A stretch of 64,000 bases of DNA from Candidatus Woesearchaeota archaeon (GTDB lineage: Archaea > Nanobdellota > Nanobdellia > Woesearchaeales > GCA-2686295): positions 1 to 64,000 of the forward strand of contig JABMPT010000013.1 in assembly GCA_013202845.1 (NCBI GenBank). Reading direction: 5' to 3'. Of the stretch, positions 1 to 51,626 are shown one piece after another (the first letter of the stretch is position 1; each line of letters begins with the position of its first letter). The position numbers and the translations under genes were made by a program. The notes below the pieces were generated by a model. That model was not told the origin of the DNA. It worked only from the letters and a program-made list of their open reading frames with translations, and made no database searches.

Positions 1-230
1 AAGCACTATACAAACAAGGAAAACTAGAAGAAGCAATAGAAGCATATGACAAAGCAATAAAACTAGACCCAAAAAACGATTACGCATGGAACAACAAAGG
101 AGTAACACTAAGAAAACAAGGAAAACTAGAAGAAGCAATAGAAGCATACAACAAAGCAATAAAGATAAACTCCTTAGATGAATTATACCAACAAAACAAA
201 GAGATAGCAGAAAAAGAACTAAGAAAATGA
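1..230 (+). CDS. TPR-repeat protein, 5' end outside window (partial)
   Basis: The reading frame is open from the window edge (frame beginning at base 3) to TGA at 228-230, leaving 75 C-terminal residues. It holds about two 34-residue TPR units with the pattern AWNNKG ... LEEAIEAYxKAI, the same repeat as in the downstream genes 887, 2746, 3456 and 4141. The C-terminus (EIAEKELRK) matches the ends of 887 (QKELRN) and 3456 (QKELND), so it is probably another member of the same tandem family. Its stop overlaps the ATG of the next small ORF (ATGA). TPR arrays bind protein partners; which partner cannot be told. Whether it carries the N-terminal tag of its neighbours is not visible. Confidence 0.85.
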   Translation, partial: ALYKQGKLEEAIEAYDKAIKLDPKNDYAWNNKGVTLRKQGKLEEAIEAYNKAIKINSLDELYQQNKEIAEKELRK

Positions 231-358
231 TTGAAGAAGGAGAACTGGAAGATATTAGAGTTACAATGAGAAATATTAGCAAAAACACTAAGTTGGCATA
301 TTCTCTAGATTATACACCTATTCATGAATATTTTGAAAGAAAAAATGCGAGGCGATAA
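227..358 (+). CDS. Small hypothetical protein (43 aa)
   Basis: ATG overlaps the stop of the upstream TPR gene as ATGA, the same junction used throughout this array, and the frame runs to TAA at 356-358, two bases before the next ATG at 361. The product starts MIEEGELEDI, and the next gene starts MAEGELEDKI, so the two share an EGELED opening. It could be a degenerate or shortened relative of the next gene, or a translational coupler. There is no membrane segment or known domain. Support comes from position and the shared opening only. Confidence 0.45.
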   Translation: MIEEGELEDIRVTMRNISKNTKLAYSLDYTPIHEYFERKNARR

Positions 359-360
359 AA

Positions 361-840
361 ATGGCAGAAGGAGAACTAGAAGACAAAATTGAAGGCATAA
401 AAGACCAAGTAAAAGAACAAGAGTATACAGCAATAGAACAAACTTATCTAGCAAGAGTCAATAAGATTACTGAAAGCGAAAAAGGACTACTTACACCAAA
501 ACAGATACAGAATCTTGCAAATATAAGAGAATCGTTCTTAACAGAAGTAGCTCAGAAAGTAGGAACATATGCTAACGAGGATGAAATAAGCAGTATACTT
601 GAAGGAAACAACGTTGACAAAACGATAATAGAGAGATGGAATAATGACAGCCAATACATCGAAGGCAAAGTTGGACAAGTAAGAGATTTGAAAGAAAGGA
701 TAAGAACCACTGAATTCGATAAAAGTGAAGCACAAAAAGTTGGAACGCAAAGGTTTAAACTGTTGGAGTACAAAAACCCTGTCTGTGATAACTACGAAGC
801 CTGGAGAAACCAAAAACAACTAATGGACATAATATCCTAA
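361..840 (+). CDS. Hypothetical charged helical protein (159 aa)
   Basis: The family is not recognised. The sequence is rich in Glu, Lys and Gln and is predicted mostly helical; no signal peptide, membrane segment or metal site is visible. It opens with EGELED, like the 43-residue ORF just upstream, from which it is separated by two bases, so it is probably co-transcribed with the upstream TPR gene. It lacks the MTLD-type tag carried by most later genes of the array. A T-rich tract follows its stop, suggesting the first transcription unit may end here. Its codon use resembles the neighbours. Confidence 0.75.
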   Translation: MAEGELEDKIEGIKDQVKEQEYTAIEQTYLARVNKITESEKGLLTPKQIQNLANIRESFLTEVAQKVGTYANEDEISSILEGNNVDKTIIERWNNDSQYIEGKVGQVRDLKERIRTTEFDKSEAQKVGTQRFKLLEYKNPVCDNYEAWRNQKQLMDIIS

Positions 841-886: not shown

Positions 887-1333
887 ATGACAATTAATGA
901 GAAATTATCGGATCCGGAACCTGAATTTGAAGAGTTAGCAAGGTTAGAGATAAAAACAAAGTCTAAAACTTATTTGTTGATTGAAAGAGCCAATTCCTTA
1001 AAAAAAGTTGGTAATGTGCAAGAAGCCATTAAAATCTACAGACAAATAATTGAAATAAACCCTGACTACAAAGAAGCTTGGAACTCAAAGGGTGAAATAG
1101 AGTATAATTTCAGAAAATACAAGCAAGCGATAATCAGCTTTGATGAAGTTCTCAGAATAGACCCTGATGATGCAAGCGCGTGGAACAACAAAGGGGTAGC
1201 ACTAAATGGATTAGGGCAACTAGAAGAAGCAATACAATGCTATGACAAAGCAATGAAAATAAACCCAGGAAACGATACCGCGTGGAACAACAAAAGAACA
1301 ACACAAAAAGAACTAAGAAATAAAAGAAGATGA
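887..1333 (+). CDS. Tagged TPR protein (148 aa)
   Basis: Residues 1-25 form the divergent first copy of the shared tag: MTIN, then EFEEL at about 14-18, then LEIKTK at about 20-25. Three TPR units follow from about residue 28, two of them with the AWNxKG signature. The C-terminus is QKELRNKRR, a tail shared with 2746. No membrane segment is seen, so it is probably cytosolic, acting as a small protein-binding adaptor. The final TGA overlaps the next start as ATGA, implying translational coupling. The tag and the tail, not just the TPRs, mark it as part of a duplicated family. Confidence 0.85.
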   Translation: MTINEKLSDPEPEFEELARLEIKTKSKTYLLIERANSLKKVGNVQEAIKIYRQIIEINPDYKEAWNSKGEIEYNFRKYKQAIISFDEVLRIDPDDASAWNNKGVALNGLGQLEEAIQCYDKAMKINPGNDTAWNNKRTTQKELRNKRR

Positions 1334-2073
1334 CCCTTGACGAAAACCTTGATTTGGAAAGAGAATTCGATGAGTTGGCAGAATTAGAGATTAAGTTAAA
1401 ACAAGTTTCAGGTGTTGATTTAGAAGGATTAAAACAACAAATTTACGAATCAGGCATTGACCACTATGCTATTCAATTAAAATCAATGCTCATAGATAAT
1501 TTACTAGAATTAACAAAGCATGAAGAGGATGGAGTTTCAAGCTATAAAACAAGTTTCACAACAGAAGAAGCAAAGGAGTTAGCTAATAAGTTGTATAATA
1601 AAATAATAGCATATGTTGCAAAAGAAATTATTGTCATGAAGCCTGAAGAAATAGAAAAAATTGACGAACTTGTAGAAACAGATGCAAGAGGATTCCTTGA
1701 CGGTGCAACTATTAGCCACACAGGTGTTGACAGAGAGGAATTTAAAGACTTACTAGTAGAAAACAGAACAAATATTTATGAAGTAATCATAAACATGAAA
1801 ATAACAAAAACTAAGAAAAAAAAACAAACAGTTAGTGAAGATCTAAAAAGTAAGAACATAACAATACTTAGATCAAGGCCTAGACCTAATTATTCTGATG
1901 AAGAACTTGAAAGACTGGAAACACAAAGAAGCAGATATGAAAATATGCTTGCAGAAGGAGTAGATAATCCTGCAGTCATTCACAGACAACTCGGAGAAAT
2001 CTATGACACACTAGGACATACAGAGCAAGCAAATAAGGAAAAACTGTTAGCTAGAAAGAAACCAGAAAAATGA
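1330..2073 (+). CDS. Tagged helical protein with lysine-rich linker (247 aa)
   Basis: It begins with the clear tag MTLDENL ... EREFDELAELEIKLK (residues 1-25). The middle (about 30-165) is helical and charged with no family recognised. A lysine-rich stretch near residues 158-165 probably forms a linker. The last 55 residues contain a single TPR-like helical hairpin (HRQLGEIYDTLGHTEQANK). Start and stop overlap both neighbours by ATGA (1330 and 2070), so it is translated within the array. It shows that the tag is not tied to a full TPR domain: the tag stays while the body differs. Confidence 0.8.
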   Translation: MTLDENLDLEREFDELAELEIKLKQVSGVDLEGLKQQIYESGIDHYAIQLKSMLIDNLLELTKHEEDGVSSYKTSFTTEEAKELANKLYNKIIAYVAKEIIVMKPEEIEKIDELVETDARGFLDGATISHTGVDREEFKDLLVENRTNIYEVIINMKITKTKKKKQTVSEDLKSKNITILRSRPRPNYSDEELERLETQRSRYENMLAEGVDNPAVIHRQLGEIYDTLGHTEQANKEKLLARKKPEK

Positions 2074-2723
2074 CCCTTGATGATGACATAAAAGATTTGG
2101 AAAAAGAATTTGACGAGTTAAAAAATGTCAAGATGAAAGTAGTTGATTCTGCCAAAAAAGAACGAAAAGCTGCTCGCAAAGAAAAGAGAAGATACCAATG
2201 GTTTGAATTCAAGCAAAAACTATCCTATGAATCTCGTGATAGAACAGTTTTAGAATGGACTACTAGAATTGCACTTTGGAGTGGTTTGGCATATGGAGCT
2301 TATAAGACACATACTGCTCTTTACGGACTTGCAAATAAATTATATGCAGGAGGATTTATGGAAATGGTTGAAAACTACAAGGAAGGCTCTGGAACATTCT
2401 TTTTTATGAGTAATTCTAACACTATGGGTTCTCCACTTGCAGAAACATCTGCATTGATTAATCATATATCTATGAATGGAGTAGGAGGAATAATAGCAGG
2501 GTTAGCAGCAGGAGCATGTGTAGGACTAGCTTTTTTAGCTGCATACTATGTAAAAGAATTAGAACTTCCTGATATTGAAGACATAACAAGCATAACACCT
2601 TTTCCTGCCCTACTTGGCGCTGCCGGAGGAGGTCTTGGAGCATTATTCTTTGGTCCAGAAGGAACAGTAGCAGGTTCTTACATAGTATCAGGATTAGCAA
2701 TCGCAAGCATGGTCAAAGAATAA
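2070..2723 (+). CDS. Tagged multi-pass membrane protein (217 aa)
   Basis: The tag is MTLDDDI, then LEKEFDEL, ending in KMKV. A strongly basic stretch (residues about 27-45) follows, then hydrophobic segments: one near 60-80, and two or three glycine/alanine-rich ones between about 135 and 215 (GIIAGLAAGACVGLAFLAAY; then ALLGAAGGGLGALFFG). The glycine-rich helices recall small channel-like or oligomeric membrane proteins, but no family is recognised. The basic stretch would keep the N-terminal tag on the cytoplasmic side by the positive-inside rule. It starts in an ATGA overlap with 1330. After its stop a 22-nt gap precedes the next tagged gene. Confidence 0.8.
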   Translation: MTLDDDIKDLEKEFDELKNVKMKVVDSAKKERKAARKEKRRYQWFEFKQKLSYESRDRTVLEWTTRIALWSGLAYGAYKTHTALYGLANKLYAGGFMEMVENYKEGSGTFFFMSNSNTMGSPLAETSALINHISMNGVGGIIAGLAAGACVGLAFLAAYYVKELELPDIEDITSITPFPALLGAAGGGLGALFFGPEGTVAGSYIVSGLAIASMVKE

Positions 2724-2745
2724 TATTAGATTATAAAATAAGAAA

Positions 2746-3459
2746 ATGACACTCGACCTAACAGTTAACGAATTAGAACAAGAATTTCAATCTTTGAAAG
2801 AAATAGAGATAAAAGTAAAGAAAACTCAAATAAATGCTCATCATAAGTCAACAATAAATGAAATACTAGGATTTCCATGGCCAGTAGCAGTTCTAATGGT
2901 ATTCATGGTTTATGAAGGAGCAACTAACTTAGTATTTAATGGCGAATATTCTCTAATAAAAAAAACATATACAAAAATAATAAACAAAAAACCTGTACAA
3001 TGGTATGACAAAGGGTTTGCACTAATAGAACGTGGGAAACTAGAAGAAGCAATCAAAGCTTATGACAAAGCAATAGAAATAAACCCAAAACACGCATTGG
3101 CATGGTATGACAAGGGATTCGCACTATACAAATTAGGGCAACTAGAAGAAGCAATACAAGCATACGACAAAGCAATAAACATAAACCCAGAATACGCGTT
3201 TGCATGGAATAACAAAGGAATAGCACTAAGTGAAATGGGGAAACGAGAAGAAGCAATAGAAGCATATGATAGAGCAATAGAAATAAACCCAGAACTCGCG
3301 TGGGCATGGAACAACAAAGGAGTTCAACTAAACAAATTAGGGCAACTAGAAGAAGCAATCAAATGCTTTGAAAAAGCAATAAGAATATCCCCAGAATACA
3401 CAGCAGCATTGAGCAACGAAAGAACAACACAAAAAGAACTAAGAAATAGAACAAAATGA
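2746..3459 (+). CDS. Membrane-anchored tagged TPR protein (237 aa)
   Basis: Domain order: tag (MTLD ... LEQEFQSL ... IEIKVKK, residues 1-27); one membrane segment at about 43-58 followed by VYEGATNLVF and GEYSLIK; then four TPR units (about 80-220) with AWYDKG or AWNNKG starts and YDKAIEINP ends; then the QKELRN tail. The membrane segment and VYEG/EYSLI block recur in 4141 and in the distant gene at 51066-51626. With basic residues before the helix, the tag should face the cytoplasm; the side on which the TPRs lie cannot be fixed. Its stop overlaps 3456 as ATGA. Codons of the TPR units are near identical to other units here, suggesting recent repeat exchange. Confidence 0.88.
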   Translation: MTLDLTVNELEQEFQSLKEIEIKVKKTQINAHHKSTINEILGFPWPVAVLMVFMVYEGATNLVFNGEYSLIKKTYTKIINKKPVQWYDKGFALIERGKLEEAIKAYDKAIEINPKHALAWYDKGFALYKLGQLEEAIQAYDKAININPEYAFAWNNKGIALSEMGKREEAIEAYDRAIEINPELAWAWNNKGVQLNKLGQLEEAIKCFEKAIRISPEYTAALSNERTTQKELRNRTK

Positions 3460-4151
3460 CCCTTGACCTAACAATTAAACAATTGGAAAGAGAATTTGAA
3501 GAGTTGGAACAGCTAGAGATTAGAATAAAAGAAGATAAACAAACAATTGAAATAAACCCTGGAGATGAACAAGCTTGGTATGAGAAAGGAATCAGACTCT
3601 CCAACCGAGTCTCCAATCTACTTCCAACCAAAGGGAGAGATGCAATAAAATGCTTTGAGAAAGTAATAGAAATAAATCCTGCAAACGAAAAAGCATGGTA
3701 CGAAAAAGCAGGAATACTACATCTTTCCGGAAAATTTAGAGAAGCTATAAGATGCTATGACAAAGTAACAGATATAAACCCCCTAAACGCAACAGCATGG
3801 CACCAGAAAGGAAATGTGTTGAGCTTATTTAGTGAAAGACGAGAAGAAGCAATAGAATGCTACAAAAAAGCAATAGAAATAGATCCAGAAAACGCAGCAG
3901 CATGGATTAACAGAGCTTCGGTTCTGCATGGGTTAGGAAAATCAGAAGAAGCGATACAGTGCTATGATAGAGCACTAGAAATAAACCCTGAACATGAAAC
4001 AGCATGGAACAACAAAGGAATAGCACTACATGACCTGGAAAGATATGAAGAAGCAATAACATGCTACAACAAAGCAATAGAGATACATCCTTCTAATGAA
4101 TTTTTTATAAGAAATAAGGAGATAGCACAAAAGGAACTAAATGACACTTGA
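3456..4151 (+). CDS. Tagged soluble TPR protein (231 aa)
   Basis: The tag (MTLDLTIK, LEREFEEL, LEIRIKE) is directly followed by five TPR units (about residues 27-225) beginning AWYEKG, AWYEKA, AWHQKG, AWINRA and AWNNKG. No membrane helix is present, in contrast to the genes on both sides. The C-terminus QKELNDT is produced by reading the first bases of the next gene in another frame: the last 11 nt (4141-4151) also encode the start of the following tag. It likely works as a partner-binding adaptor alongside the membrane-anchored siblings; this role is inferred from the family only. Confidence 0.87.
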   Translation: MTLDLTIKQLEREFEELEQLEIRIKEDKQTIEINPGDEQAWYEKGIRLSNRVSNLLPTKGRDAIKCFEKVIEINPANEKAWYEKAGILHLSGKFREAIRCYDKVTDINPLNATAWHQKGNVLSLFSERREEAIECYKKAIEIDPENAAAWINRASVLHGLGKSEEAIQCYDRALEINPEHETAWNNKGIALHDLERYEEAITCYNKAIEIHPSNEFFIRNKEIAQKELNDT

Positions 4152-5334
4152 TGAAGACGTAAACCTGGAAAGAGAATTTGAAGAGTTAGCAGAGATAGAG
4201 ATGAAAGTTCAAAAAGAAAAGTTTTCATTAAGAAAAAGAAAGATTCCAAATTGGCTACGAATAGTTATTGGCTTGTCGGCATTCTCAGCATACGAAACAA
4301 TAGACAACTTAGTGTTCGAAGGAGAACATTCAGTAATAAAAAGCATTTTTAATCTGTCAGAATCAAAAAAAACAGTTAAATTGTACGAACAAGCATTAGA
4401 ACAATCCAGGCTTGGAGAATACAATCAAGCAATCGAGAGCTTTGATAAATTAATAGAAATAAACCCACAAAATTCAATCGCATGGTCAGGCAGAGGAATT
4501 TCACTAACTAGTCTGAGAAGATATGAAGAAGCAATTAAAAACTTCAACAAAGCAATAGAAATAAATCCAGAATATGCACACGCATGGGACAACAAAGGAA
4601 CAGCACTACACAACCAAGGAAACTTAGAAGAAGCAATAGAAGCATACAATAAAGCAATAAACATAAACTCTTCTGAAAAATCATTTAAACAAAACAGAGA
4701 AGGAGCAGAGAAAAGACTTGTAGAATCATATATTAAATCAAGAAATTATAGTAAAGCGCTTTCTTATTGTAATAAAGAAATCAAATCAAGACCTGACAAT
4801 ACTTTCTTACGTGTTCTTCTTGGAGATATATACACTCATAAAGGCGATGTAGACATGGCCATTGTTACCTACAAGAGAGTTGCAGACTTAGCAGAGCATA
4901 AAAGCTTAGAGGAAAGTATAGCTTACGAAAAACTTGGTGATGTCTACGAAAAAAAGTCAAGTCAAACTGGATCTCGTGATTACTTAGAAGAAGCTAGACA
5001 TGCCTATGGTATGGCACAATATGGAAGATCTGGTAACGCCTCCTTAAATTACAAAGAAGGACTAATGGAAAGTAAGTTAGGATTGGTTAGTGAGGCCATT
5101 AAGGACTATAACTGGGCTATAAAATGTGATCCTAATTATGCAGAAGCACACAACAAACTTGGAGATGAATATATCAATAAAACTAAAACAATCTGGTTCA
5201 AGAGCAACAAAAAAAAAGAGATTTACAAAGCAATGACACACTATGATAAAGCAATAGAATTACAACCAAATAACCAAGCTTTTAGAAATGATCTAAAAAG
5301 AGCTAAGCAAATACTAGCAGAACTTGACGAATAA
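4141..5334 (+). CDS. Membrane-anchored tagged TPR protein, long form (397 aa)
   Basis: The tag (MTLDEDV, EREFEELAEIEMKV) is followed by a single membrane segment at about 42-57 and the same juxtamembrane block as 2746 (AYETIDNLVF, GEHSVIK). Classical AWxxKG TPR units follow at about 80-185, then four or five more divergent TPR units to the C-terminus (for example GDIYTHKGDVDMAIVTYKRV). It is the longest member and closes the array; a 155-nt gap follows. It overlaps 3456 by 11 nt out of frame, the longest overlap in the array. Probably a membrane-tethered scaffold; no enzymatic motif is visible. Confidence 0.87.
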   Translation: MTLDEDVNLEREFEELAEIEMKVQKEKFSLRKRKIPNWLRIVIGLSAFSAYETIDNLVFEGEHSVIKSIFNLSESKKTVKLYEQALEQSRLGEYNQAIESFDKLIEINPQNSIAWSGRGISLTSLRRYEEAIKNFNKAIEINPEYAHAWDNKGTALHNQGNLEEAIEAYNKAININSSEKSFKQNREGAEKRLVESYIKSRNYSKALSYCNKEIKSRPDNTFLRVLLGDIYTHKGDVDMAIVTYKRVADLAEHKSLEESIAYEKLGDVYEKKSSQTGSRDYLEEARHAYGMAQYGRSGNASLNYKEGLMESKLGLVSEAIKDYNWAIKCDPNYAEAHNKLGDEYINKTKTIWFKSNKKKEIYKAMTHYDKAIELQPNNQAFRNDLKRAKQILAELDE

Positions 5335-5489: not shown

Positions 5490-5816
5490 ATGGAACAACC
5501 GCTTGAAGAAGAAATTAAGCCTAAGAAAAAGTCGAGATGGAAAGCTTTTACTTTAACAACACTAATCACAGCCAGCGCATTATTATACACTGGCGATAAA
5601 CTAGAAGTAGCACAAAGAGTAGACCGCGTGTATGAAAGAGCAAAGAACACCGTTATTTATGCGGTTTCTGGAAATCTACCTGAAAAGCCATACACCTCTG
5701 TCAGTACCCCAAAATCTTCTAATGACACAACCGCGGTCTACACTTCTCCTCAAACAGAAGATACAACTCAAGTTGAGAACAAACCTAGCTTCGATGAATG
5801 GTTAAACAAACAATAG
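5490..5816 (+). CDS. Single-pass membrane protein (108 aa)
   Basis: The start follows a GAGGTG ribosome site by 7 nt. A charged cytoplasmic N-terminus rich in Lys and Glu (about 1-18) precedes one membrane helix (about 20-36, TLTTLITASALLYTG), then a Ser/Thr-rich tail of about 70 residues that would lie outside the cell. The family is not recognised. It is the first of three consecutive small membrane proteins (5490, 5827, 6483) that are closely spaced or overlapping and probably form one operon, perhaps one complex. Confidence 0.75.
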   Translation: MEQPLEEEIKPKKKSRWKAFTLTTLITASALLYTGDKLEVAQRVDRVYERAKNTVIYAVSGNLPEKPYTSVSTPKSSNDTTAVYTSPQTEDTTQVENKPSFDEWLNKQ

Positions 5817-5826
5817 GTGATCTAAA

Positions 5827-6486
5827 ATGGGAATGAGCTTAAATAAATGGGGATGGGCAATCCTTGTAAAAGGAGGTGTCCTTACAGCAGTTTTCTTAAC
5901 ATATAGTTTTCATCCAGATATCAAGAAACTCGATTACAATATTTTCAGTAGGAATGCTCCTGTCGCAGAAAGTTTCTATCAGAACCCACCAATACTTGAT
6001 ATTAAGTGGGAAGAGAACGACAAAGGAGAAATAGAGACTTACTTAGTGAACAACTCTAGCGGCAAAAAAACAAAAGTCTTGTACGACATGCTCCCATCAA
6101 ATAAAACAATAGTCGATGCAATGCAAAAAAGGTTTGAAGACGGTTACTCAGAAGATGAAAGTATTGACGAAGTTGTCGATGAATCCTTTGATGTCTTTCA
6201 AGCTGCAACCAATGCAAAATTCAGCGAACAATACAGTGATAGCTCAATGTCTGTAAATGATATAAGTTTAGTTGTTGAACAGGATAAAAACGGAGAAAAC
6301 AACTTGTACTTGACAAACGGAGTTGCAAAAGTCAGAATAAACCAAGAATTGTTTGAAGAAGATATTGCATTGAACTTTGGCAAGTATGAAGGAATGCTTG
6401 GTGACAATGGAAAGAAGAAAGCTGCAAAGATGTTCACACAGTTTCTTGACCAAAAATATGAGCAATTTGAGAGGAATTCACAATGA
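5827..6486 (+). CDS. Membrane-anchored extracytoplasmic protein (219 aa)
   Basis: One N-terminal hydrophobic segment (about 9-28, ILVKGGVLTAVFLTYSF) is followed by about 190 acidic, mixed alpha/beta residues; the domain is not recognised. ATG at 5827 is used here; an in-frame ATG two codons later is also possible. It lies 10 nt after 5490 and overlaps 6483 as ATGA, so the three are probably translated together. The Asp/Glu-rich stretch around 98-115 (EDESIDEVVDE) could bind cations, but that is speculation. No cysteines are present, so no disulfide or metal cluster is expected. Confidence 0.75.
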   Translation: MGMSLNKWGWAILVKGGVLTAVFLTYSFHPDIKKLDYNIFSRNAPVAESFYQNPPILDIKWEENDKGEIETYLVNNSSGKKTKVLYDMLPSNKTIVDAMQKRFEDGYSEDESIDEVVDESFDVFQAATNAKFSEQYSDSSMSVNDISLVVEQDKNGENNLYLTNGVAKVRINQELFEEDIALNFGKYEGMLGDNGKKKAAKMFTQFLDQKYEQFERNSQ

Positions 6487-6722
6487 AATTAGACTTGGGA
6501 AACATTGTGCAACAAACATTCACAAGGCTGAAGAACGAGACCATAAACTACACACCACTGCCTCATATGATGGAAAATCACAGATTAAAAGCATTCATAG
6601 GTGGAACTGCTTTGGCAGGAACCTACATCATTCCAGGAGATCAACCGATTCTTACAATGCTAGCTCTTGCTTATGGCGGTGTAAAAGGTTATCAAGCAGT
6701 TCGTGACTGGGCAAATAAATAA
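6483..6722 (+). CDS. Small hydrophobic protein (79 aa)
   Basis: It starts in an ATGA overlap with the preceding gene. Two short hydrophobic stretches (about 38-53, AFIGGTALAGTYIIPG; and 57-70, ILTMLALAYGGVKG) could form a helical hairpin in the membrane. It is the last of the three-gene membrane unit 5490-6722. The family is not recognised. The downstream glgC-like gene has a possible start inside this gene, but a better start lies 44 nt after its stop. Confidence 0.7.
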   Translation: MKLDLGNIVQQTFTRLKNETINYTPLPHMMENHRLKAFIGGTALAGTYIIPGDQPILTMLALAYGGVKGYQAVRDWANK

Positions 6723-49818: not shown

Positions 49819-51069
49819 TTGAAGAAAAAATTACCTGCATTATTGACGCTGTTCTTGATTATTCTTAGCATGATTCCTTTTGTAAGTGCACAACAGGGCT
49901 CTGAAGAAGCTTTTGGGCAGGTATTCGAAATGGTTATCTCTGTATTTCTGAATTTAGCAAGTAAAACTGTCACAATGCCTATATTTGGCGGAGAGGCTTC
50001 GTATCTTGCATTGTTTGCAACATGGCTTATTATCTTCTCACTTTTCTGGGTTGGCACAGGAAAGATTCCTCCATTCAAAGATTCTGGTCAGGAATATAAA
50101 GGTGCAAGAAAGATATTTGCAATATCATTATCTTTACTGGTTTCATTCGGTTCTCCACTTCCAGTTATGATCACAAATTTCATGCATTCGTGGTTCAGCA
50201 TAGCTATTTGGTATGCTTCCATATTATTTGGTATACTGCTGTTATGGGCTATTACAAGTCTTGGCAGCAGAGGATTTTCAGGCCTTTCGAAGTATGGTGC
50301 TGAGAGCAAACAGACCTGGAGAGAAGCTTCAGACATGGTTAGAGGAACTTACAGAGAAGGAAAAGCTGTCAAGAATGAAGGCTCTGCTTTAAAAGGTCTT
50401 AGAGGGCTTATAGGAAATGAAAAAGCCAGAGGTGCAAACTTAATCCAAGAACTTGAGAAATTAAAGCAGGTTATCGTTGTCTTGAGAAACACTGGTAGCC
50501 CGGAAGCAAAAGAAGAACTATTCACTTCATTGAGAACGTTTTCTACTATATTACAAGATGAAACAATGGCTAGTGTATTAGACACTAAAATAAAAGATGT
50601 CCTTCAACAGCTTCAAGAAAGAGACGGTAAGGTTATAAAAGGGTTGAATCGCTATAAAAAAGAACAAGATGATCTGAAACAACACCTCATAAATACCGTA
50701 GGAAAATCTGCTACTGAAGCTGATGCAGATGTACAGAAAGCAATCGAAGACAGCAAGAAAGTCGCTGCAATTGAAGGTGAATTGAACAACATAATAACAA
50801 CTATATCCACTGATATGCATAATGTAACAGAAGCGACAAAAGTTTTAAAGAATGCTATCGCCAACCCAAATGATGCTAATCTTGCCAATGCAGAAAATAC
50901 GATTGACAAACTCATACAACATGTCAAAGCTGAAGAAGCATGGCTTAACAAAGCAAATGCCCTAATAGAGCAGATACAAGCTTTGCTTACAAATGAACTT
51001 AAAGTCCTTACGGAAGCTTGCAAGCTTGACATGAATATTAGCAAGATTGAGAGAAAAGGATTGGCTTAG
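49819..51069 (+). CDS. Membrane protein with long helical domain (416 aa)
   Basis: The TTG start at 49819 is chosen: GAGGTG lies 6 nt before it and the product begins MKKKLPALLTLFLIILSMIP, a clear signal or anchor segment; the GTG at 49810 would sit inside the ribosome site. Four hydrophobic segments (about 5-25, 33-50, 62-82, 100-150) are followed by a 270-residue helical, coiled-coil domain rich in Glu/Lys (LIQELEKLKQVIVVLRN ... ALIEQIQALLTNEL). No known domain. The coiled coil is probably cytoplasmic. It is convergent with the tagged TPR gene 51066 (4-nt overlap). Confidence 0.78.
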   Translation: MKKKLPALLTLFLIILSMIPFVSAQQGSEEAFGQVFEMVISVFLNLASKTVTMPIFGGEASYLALFATWLIIFSLFWVGTGKIPPFKDSGQEYKGARKIFAISLSLLVSFGSPLPVMITNFMHSWFSIAIWYASILFGILLLWAITSLGSRGFSGLSKYGAESKQTWREASDMVRGTYREGKAVKNEGSALKGLRGLIGNEKARGANLIQELEKLKQVIVVLRNTGSPEAKEELFTSLRTFSTILQDETMASVLDTKIKDVLQQLQERDGKVIKGLNRYKKEQDDLKQHLINTVGKSATEADADVQKAIEDSKKVAAIEGELNNIITTISTDMHNVTEATKVLKNAIANPNDANLANAENTIDKLIQHVKAEEAWLNKANALIEQIQALLTNELKVLTEACKLDMNISKIERKGLA

Positions 51070-51626
51070 AACAATATAAACTTCTTCTTTTTACCATGAT
51101 ACATCTGATTTAGAATGTCACCTTTTCTAAGTCTATAGGATTTATTGTTTGGCTTCAAGATTATTGCCCTATCGCACGCGTCTATTGCTTCATCATATTT
51201 TTTCATTTCACTATATAGAAAGCTTATATTAATCCATATATCTGCGTAATCTTCAGGCACTTTTGGTTTATTATTCCTCTTATATGCTTCAAGTGTTGAT
51301 TTAAGAGTATTTACTTCTCTAAGCAATGAATTGTAATCATTCCTCAACTTTTTATAATTATAATCTCTAGCCAAATACTCTTCTACAGAATCATCAAGAT
51401 TGTTTTGCACTGAATTCATAACTCTTGCTTTTGTCTGGCACACCAAAGAGTACTCTCTAAAATCTGTTAGCCCACACACTCCTTCATACACTGTGAATAC
51501 TGTTAATGCTGATAACAACCACATCTGTTTAGGAATGCGTCTTCTTGATTTCTTTACTTTTATCTCTAGAGTTTCTAAATCATCGAATTCTTTTTCCAAT
51601 TCTTCAACAGTTAAATTTTGCACCAA
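51066..51626 (-). CDS. Distant tagged membrane TPR protein (186 aa)
   Basis: Begins MVQNLTVEELEKEFDDLETL then EIKVKKS, the same tag as genes 887-4141 about 46 kb away. A membrane segment (about 33-46) with VYEG and REYSLV repeats the juxtamembrane block of 2746 and 4141. A central helical part (about 60-115) and one or two TPR units (about 118-175, IWINISFLYSEMKKYDEAIDACDRAIILKP) follow. The promoter shows the shared motif at 51672-51695 plus TATA at 51657-51667. This copy shows the family is dispersed and not only a local duplication. Confidence 0.85.
   Translation of the reverse strand: MVQNLTVEELEKEFDDLETLEIKVKKSRRRIPKQMWLLSALTVFTVYEGVCGLTDFREYSLVCQTKARVMNSVQNNLDDSVEEYLARDYNYKKLRNDYNSLLREVNTLKSTLEAYKRNNKPKVPEDYADIWINISFLYSEMKKYDEAIDACDRAIILKPNNKSYRLRKGDILNQMYHGKKKKFILF

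Follow-up and report, generated by a model that had tools for sequence, protein, structure and literature searches.

The first 64,000 nucleotides of contig C13 (JABMPT010000013.1) from a Candidatus Woesearchaeota archaeon, hereafter the window, contain a run of consecutive genes whose products start with a common N-terminal leader of ~25 residues (tag A) and continue into unrelated bodies. Through comparison with related genomes we find that such tags are shared between neighbouring genes, that tags and bodies are exchanged in a modular manner, that tagged genes are linked to a module of Ser/Thr kinase, PP2C phosphatase and a dehydrogenase-like protein, and that the tags diverge from genome to genome. 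On balance, we favour the interpretation that the tag is a cytosolic docking helix that would plug interchangeable bodies into one kinase/phosphatase module. This is of interest in ultra-small DPANN archaea, in which few signalling systems have been described and many genes have no known function.

We refer to the genome of the window (1.2 Mb in 14 contigs) as G000, to a species from the same genus as G001 and to genes of the window by W and a number, e.g. W887. The six plus-strand open reading frames (ORFs) of the initial annotation, starting at 887, 1330, 2070, 2746, 3456 and 4141, and the minus-strand ORF at 51066–51626 were all found at these coordinates, and the leader they share was confirmed; the MTLD start ascribed to it is not general, with W887 starting MTIN and the 51066–51626 product starting MVQN from a TTG codon. 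Residues M1, E11, E13, F14 and L17 are invariant in the alignment of the seven leaders (A1). Behind the leader, W887 (887–1333; MTINEKLSDPEPEFEELARLEIKTK; A1 E 9.5e-15) is a soluble TPR protein (TPR_1, 1.2e-26), as is W3456 (3456–4151; profile, Pfam and structure model), W2746 (2746–3459; profile, Pfam and hydropathy) exhibits a transmembrane (TM) segment at residues 37–55 followed by TPRs, and W4141 (4141–5334; profile and Pfam) a weak hydrophobic segment (YETIDNLVFEGEHSVIK) followed by TPRs. The body of W1330 (1330–2073; profile and Pfam) is helical and matches no Pfam family, and its final ~50 residues resemble one TPR-like hairpin in a low-confidence and uninformative single-sequence model (pLDDT 50). 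W2070 (2070–2723; A1 1.2e-14) has a glycine-rich membrane body (TM at 138–156) with no Pfam family above cut-off. The minus-strand gene, W51626, combines tag A with a hydrophobic segment and a coil/TPR body; it is unlinked to the cluster and syntenic with G001 contig C30 (L047:1459–2343). Membrane anchoring of TPR proteins, also part of the initial annotation, is clear for W2746 alone under a strict hydropathy cut and weak for W4141, W51626 and a short protein encoded on contig C8.

Searching the leader profile against the whole of G000 returned 13 copies of tag A (E 5e-15 to 7.5e-9): seven in the window, three on contig C8 (TPR proteins of 398 and 261 amino acids and a 93-residue protein comprising tag and hydrophobic segment) and three on contig C10 (a 300-residue protein with coil and glycine-rich membrane regions, and two small hydrophobic proteins of 99 and 119 residues). 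G001 encodes nine tag A genes, one of which heads a right-handed beta-helix-like body (L046:7130–8125). No convincing match to the exact sequence of tag A was obtained in other genomes among 353 of the order and 371 of the phylum, and weak matches elsewhere in the order (G523, G112, G089 and G081) were rejected as internal or at chance level; judged by sequence, exact tag A is restricted to two species of one genus. On contig C8, the 93-residue protein (L044:17641–18448) is truncated and adjoins a TPR gene whose leader resembles a decayed tag, and an aminotransferase and an opine/saccharopine-dehydrogenase-like gene, bacterial-looking by eye, lie between two tagged TPR genes (L044:11115–13604).

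As a check on circularity, a hidden Markov model (HMM) was built solely from the tags of seven TPR proteins and run against 1705 ORFs (Z = 20000). It matched W1330 (5e-11), C10:27977 (1.5e-10), C10:27618 (6.5e-8), W2070 (9e-8), C10:26671 (4e-6) and the beta-helix protein of G001 (1.5e-5), and every match with E <0.01 was a tagged protein matched at its N-terminus. Beyond the tag, the bodies comprise one TPR family and several groups without detectable similarity to TPR proteins or to each other. Thus the leader does head other bodies, as the initial annotation had anticipated: TPR, beta-helix, helical, small hydrophobic and glycine-rich membrane proteins all carry it, and with unrelated bodies tagged it is not confined to recent duplicates of one TPR gene.

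The window begins at a contig end within the cluster and the array is therefore longer than the window could show: the cluster forms the end of a conserved block in which tagged genes come after a regulator, a dehydrogenase-like/propeller protein, a PP2C phosphatase and a Ser/Thr kinase. In G001 this block lies on one contig, where a regulator, a 756-residue protein, PP2C and kinase are followed by six tag A genes and then by proteins of 107, 217 and 78 residues, a GlgC-like gene and SerS. In G000 the right end of contig C10 presents a helix-turn-helix regulator, a transporter, an 865-residue protein, PP2C, the kinase and three genes with a second leader, tag B (MxEGELExxI), heading a 182-residue helical body, a 448-residue GXGXG-like beta-helix and a TPR body that runs off the contig. 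We infer that C10 joins C13: positions 1–230 of the window (plus strand) hold the 3' tail of a TPR gene broken by the contig start, which from its sequence and its synteny with G001 is probably the end of the tag B TPR gene leaving C10 (L072:9245). Two further plus-strand tag B genes follow, a 43-residue ORF starting MIEEGELED (227–358; profile A4, E 5.6e-10) and a protein at 361–840 (MAEGELEDKIEGIK; A4 E 2.2e-9), so that five tag B genes, their bodies unrelated, lie between kinase and tag A cluster (window 227–840; L072:7339–9889); no further copy of comparable strength was found in G000 with A4. The body of the 361–840 protein has its homologue in the C-terminal part of the kinase of G001 (45% identity over 134 residues, E 1e-36), a likeness that, at the level of sequence, is a fusion link between tagged proteins and kinase. 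The 756/865-residue protein contains a malate/lactate-dehydrogenase-like domain (PDB match, E 5e-21), and we read its C-terminal part as a propeller. The Pfam Pkinase family is above cut-off in the kinases of G001 and G012 and below it in that of G000; the module kinases span 412–485 residues, with the sensor-like bodies encoded by separate genes. The co-occurrence with a fixed partner gene that the initial annotation had looked to is hence found, with the kinase/PP2C/dehydrogenase-propeller module preceding tagged runs. A stop or frameshift divides the PP2C gene of G001 in two (L046:10367–11260), reflecting either real decay or an assembly error.

Within the genus, G002–G005 retain a 219-residue protein that flanks the cluster and have no tags beside it, the island between the conserved flanks being occupied, in place of kinase and tagged genes, by AAA ATPase and coiled-coil genes (L083–L086) and, in G005, also by a transglutaminase-like protein. 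The module had appeared to be limited to G000 and G001 in this genus, which was overturned by a divergent copy elsewhere in G005 (L154) that carries one tagged TM-TPR gene. Tagless islands in four species of the genus, together with the displaced module of G005, point to rapid turnover of module and tags.

Module loci in other families were located by searching kinase and dehydrogenase-propeller profiles across the order. Behind the kinase, consecutive genes again share a leader, and this leader differs per genome: (L/I)ExDLExK(L/V)xx(L/M) on seven genes in G070, including TPR and PD40 propeller (1.5e-8) bodies; NKDLEELLKR on three genes in G187, one GXGXG-like and one FG-GAP-like; DDSVRxRIDSLL on seven genes in G414; LExRLxETFQRLK in G085; KRLDxI in G092, with one beta-helix body (5.6e-27); (L/I)E(D/E)RLxxLI in G094; and DLxELVxxEAxRR in G112. 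A lone tag-like leader follows the module in G479, G005 and G051, and perhaps in G012. In an unbiased comparison of the N-terminal 40 residues encoded by genes behind the kinase, with the 99th percentile of same-locus pairs as threshold, 51 of 98 unrelated-body pairs exceeded this threshold, spread over 8 of 10 testable loci (G112 and G012 gave no such pair), against 6 of 715 pairs (0.84%) in 70 other co-directional runs; the sample consists of draft genomes with partly inferred gene starts, several of which contribute few gene pairs. A core L-E-x-x-phi-x-x-phi is partly recognisable between genomes, with a leave-one-genome-out area under the curve (AUC) of 0.97–1.0 in six groups, although, with core positions chosen by eye, this homology between genomes carries less weight than the comparison within loci.

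Bodies and tags are also seen to part company. Homologous beta-helix bodies (E 9e-33 to 1e-3) bear differing leaders in G001, G092, G051, G085, G479 and G112, and the TPR body behind tag B is 62% identical to one behind tag A. In G051 a single chain (L157:12566–14503) consists of tag, TM-like segment, TPR and beta-helix, thereby fusing TM-TPR and beta-helix bodies that other genomes encode as tagged proteins of their own. In G480, five consecutive genes with signal-peptide-like starts, mostly sharing an EGKEVWQL-type motif, come after the gene for a short dehydrogenase-like protein related to that of the module (L153:5687–11728).

The tag itself contains no Pfam domain over its ~25 residues, is amphipathic and mostly net negative in its helical part. 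In an AlphaFold2 model of W3456 it forms a separate helix (residues 7–28, pLDDT about 56–75) connected by a linker to a confident TPR solenoid. The side of a TM segment that is rich in lysine and arginine (K/R) faces the cytoplasm, as stated by the positive-inside rule. Tagged single-pass proteins with a clear TM segment near the tag display 3–6 K/R before and 0–3 after this segment; with the tag on the K/R-rich side, it should face the cytoplasm. At position 11 of the tag, unrelated loci of G000 have L or P and those of G001 have I or P, and in three corresponding G000/G001 protein pairs the tags are no more alike than tags within one genome. Such likeness within a genome would follow from a single evolving receptor for all the tags, with shared ancestry also contributing.

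The occurrence of the tag on many body types and the fixed gene neighbourhood make a docking role plausible. The docking or targeting peptide of the initial annotation is thus retained in general form; the idea of one fixed tag fails since tags turn over between genomes, and the description of the bodies as effectors is doubtful, as they resemble sensors or scaffolds and not enzymes. In our proposal, each tagged protein would present a short cytosolic docking helix at its N-terminus, through which a module of Ser/Thr kinase, PP2C and malate/lactate-dehydrogenase-like protein with a propeller-like C-terminus would recruit changeable sensor or scaffold bodies (TPR, beta-helix, propeller and membrane proteins) as separate chains. 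The result would resemble a split receptor kinase with plug-in parts: membrane-borne bodies would point outward and keep the tag inside, soluble ones would sense or scaffold within the cell, the tag would bind its partner in the module and regulation would proceed by phosphorylation. We advance only tentatively the wider idea that split receptor kinases of this kind occur throughout the lineage, each genome possessing a private N-terminal docking code that co-evolves with its kinase module.

Several observations weigh against docking to this module. No receptor domain for the tag was found, and the kinases have no tag themselves: for 12 module kinases the N-terminal scores fall at the 41st–93rd percentile of background, by which a tag on the kinase, and homotypic recruitment of the kinase through it, was rejected. 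The N-terminus of the dehydrogenase-propeller protein does lie near the 99th percentile of the tag score in G000, and in that genome only. The G000 kinase has no DFG-like motif (SLGSG in its place) and, judging from this sequence, may be inactive or catalytically degraded. Some tagged genes of G000 are distant from the module (C8, C10:26.7–28.0 kb and the window at 51.6 kb), tag A and the leaders of G001, G414 and G092 match the core of other genomes weakly (AUC 0.78–0.88), and the genomic linkage could stem from shared regulation alone.

The main rival is homotypic assembly, in which tags would pair with each other, as a short coil and a strand, and bring all tagged proteins of a cell together in one complex, with the kinase being recruited by a body. 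The untagged kinase suits this model, as do the presence of tags in the same operons, their convergence inside a genome, the fusion of tagged bodies in G051, the heptad-like spacing of I/V8, L/I11, F15 and L18 in alignment A2 and the alternating LEIKVK end of the leader; a helix of two turns is short for a stable coiled coil on its own, however, and one cluster holds both tag A and tag B; we regard this model as rather unlikely. Less probable still is a model in which a protease, chaperone or AAA machine, and not the kinase, recognises the tag as a signal for processing, turnover or localisation: the strictly N-terminal position of the tag would fit, as would the genes for an AAA ATPase and a transglutaminase-like protein that relatives carry in the corresponding island, yet the AAA genes of G002–G005 lie at tagless islands, and the predicted helical and mostly acidic nature of the tag argues against a membrane-binding helix. 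An artefact at gene level without a role for the protein, whether from recently duplicated genes, 5' ends homogenised by gene conversion or a signal for the initiation of translation, might be suspected from the tandem, partly overlapping genes and from the TPR paralogues among the bodies, but is highly improbable: with pS of 0.64 and pN/pS of 0.40 over the 15 core codons, silent sites are near saturation and the peptide is kept, so that selection acts on the peptide. Conservation extends to codon ~25, and other families show the same pattern with tags of their own; recent copying or conversion was rejected on account of the near-saturated silent sites and the unrelated bodies.

A viral origin was rejected: the N-terminal part of W4141 retrieved nothing from viral contigs, and nothing convincing was found in PHROGs. 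Matches in PADLOC were limited to weak and generic entries for kinase and TPR. Loci of relatives contain transcription factor TFB-like and exosome-like genes, which are archaeal in character.

Among known systems, short N-terminal amphipathic helices on unrelated proteins are found in the encapsulation peptides of bacterial microcompartment cargo, which consists of enzymes. The tag shares such a helix with them, whereas the tagged bodies do not look like enzymes; microcompartment shell genes were absent from the loci read, a search for shell proteins across whole genomes not having been made. Bacterial amyloid signalling and RHIM-like motifs are short amyloid-forming motifs common to adjacent genes with different bodies. 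The tag departs from these in being highly charged and modelled as a helix, and no NLR-like receptor was present among the genes read in tagged loci; a fungal counterpart of the amyloid motifs has been described (PMC9815663). Bacterial receptor Ser/Thr kinases with fused TPR, WD/PQQ-propeller or PASTA domains (survey: PMC1262709) likewise tie similar repeat classes to a Hanks-type kinase, some of them across the membrane, but carry the sensor in the same chain, whereas here the sensor-like bodies are supplied in trans and several per kinase. By analogy, the behaviour of the tag is closest to the "EAD principle" (PMC8195603) of effector-associated domains (EADs) in prokaryotic conflict systems (Kaur et al. 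2020/2021; PMC7159879, PMC8195603). EADs, too, are small non-catalytic terminal elements on several unrelated bodies, occur near a regulatory core in many copies per locus and genome and are more alike within a genome. They differ in being globular and mostly multi-helical, compared to the ~25 residues and single modelled helix of the tag, in being present on the core component as well, and in carrying effector or signalling domains where the tagged bodies are repeat or membrane proteins.

The literature searched, with partial coverage, contained no description of such tags or of the kinase-phosphatase module. Modular terminal recruitment elements are already known, and there is a fair chance that the tag system forms a distinct class. 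If split receptor kinases are indeed present, they would represent a previously undescribed modular architecture for signalling, in archaea presumed to be host-dependent; if the tags are docking codes, members of signalling complexes could be named from sequence alone, which would give roles to many uncharacterised proteins, and the tags would provide a natural set of orthogonal peptide-receptor pairs.

On its downstream side the cluster is bordered by a trio of small membrane proteins encoded on the plus strand (5490–6722): a 108-residue membrane protein (5490–5816) that is syntenic in G001, the 219-residue membrane protein (5827–6486) kept as a flank in 6 of 6 genus members, and a 79-residue protein (6483–6722) ending in GYQAVRDWANK, a conserved flank by sequence similarity. 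Relatives of the 79-residue protein are found in loci of G005 (L086), G187 and G094, and close to module loci of other families (L120 and L125).

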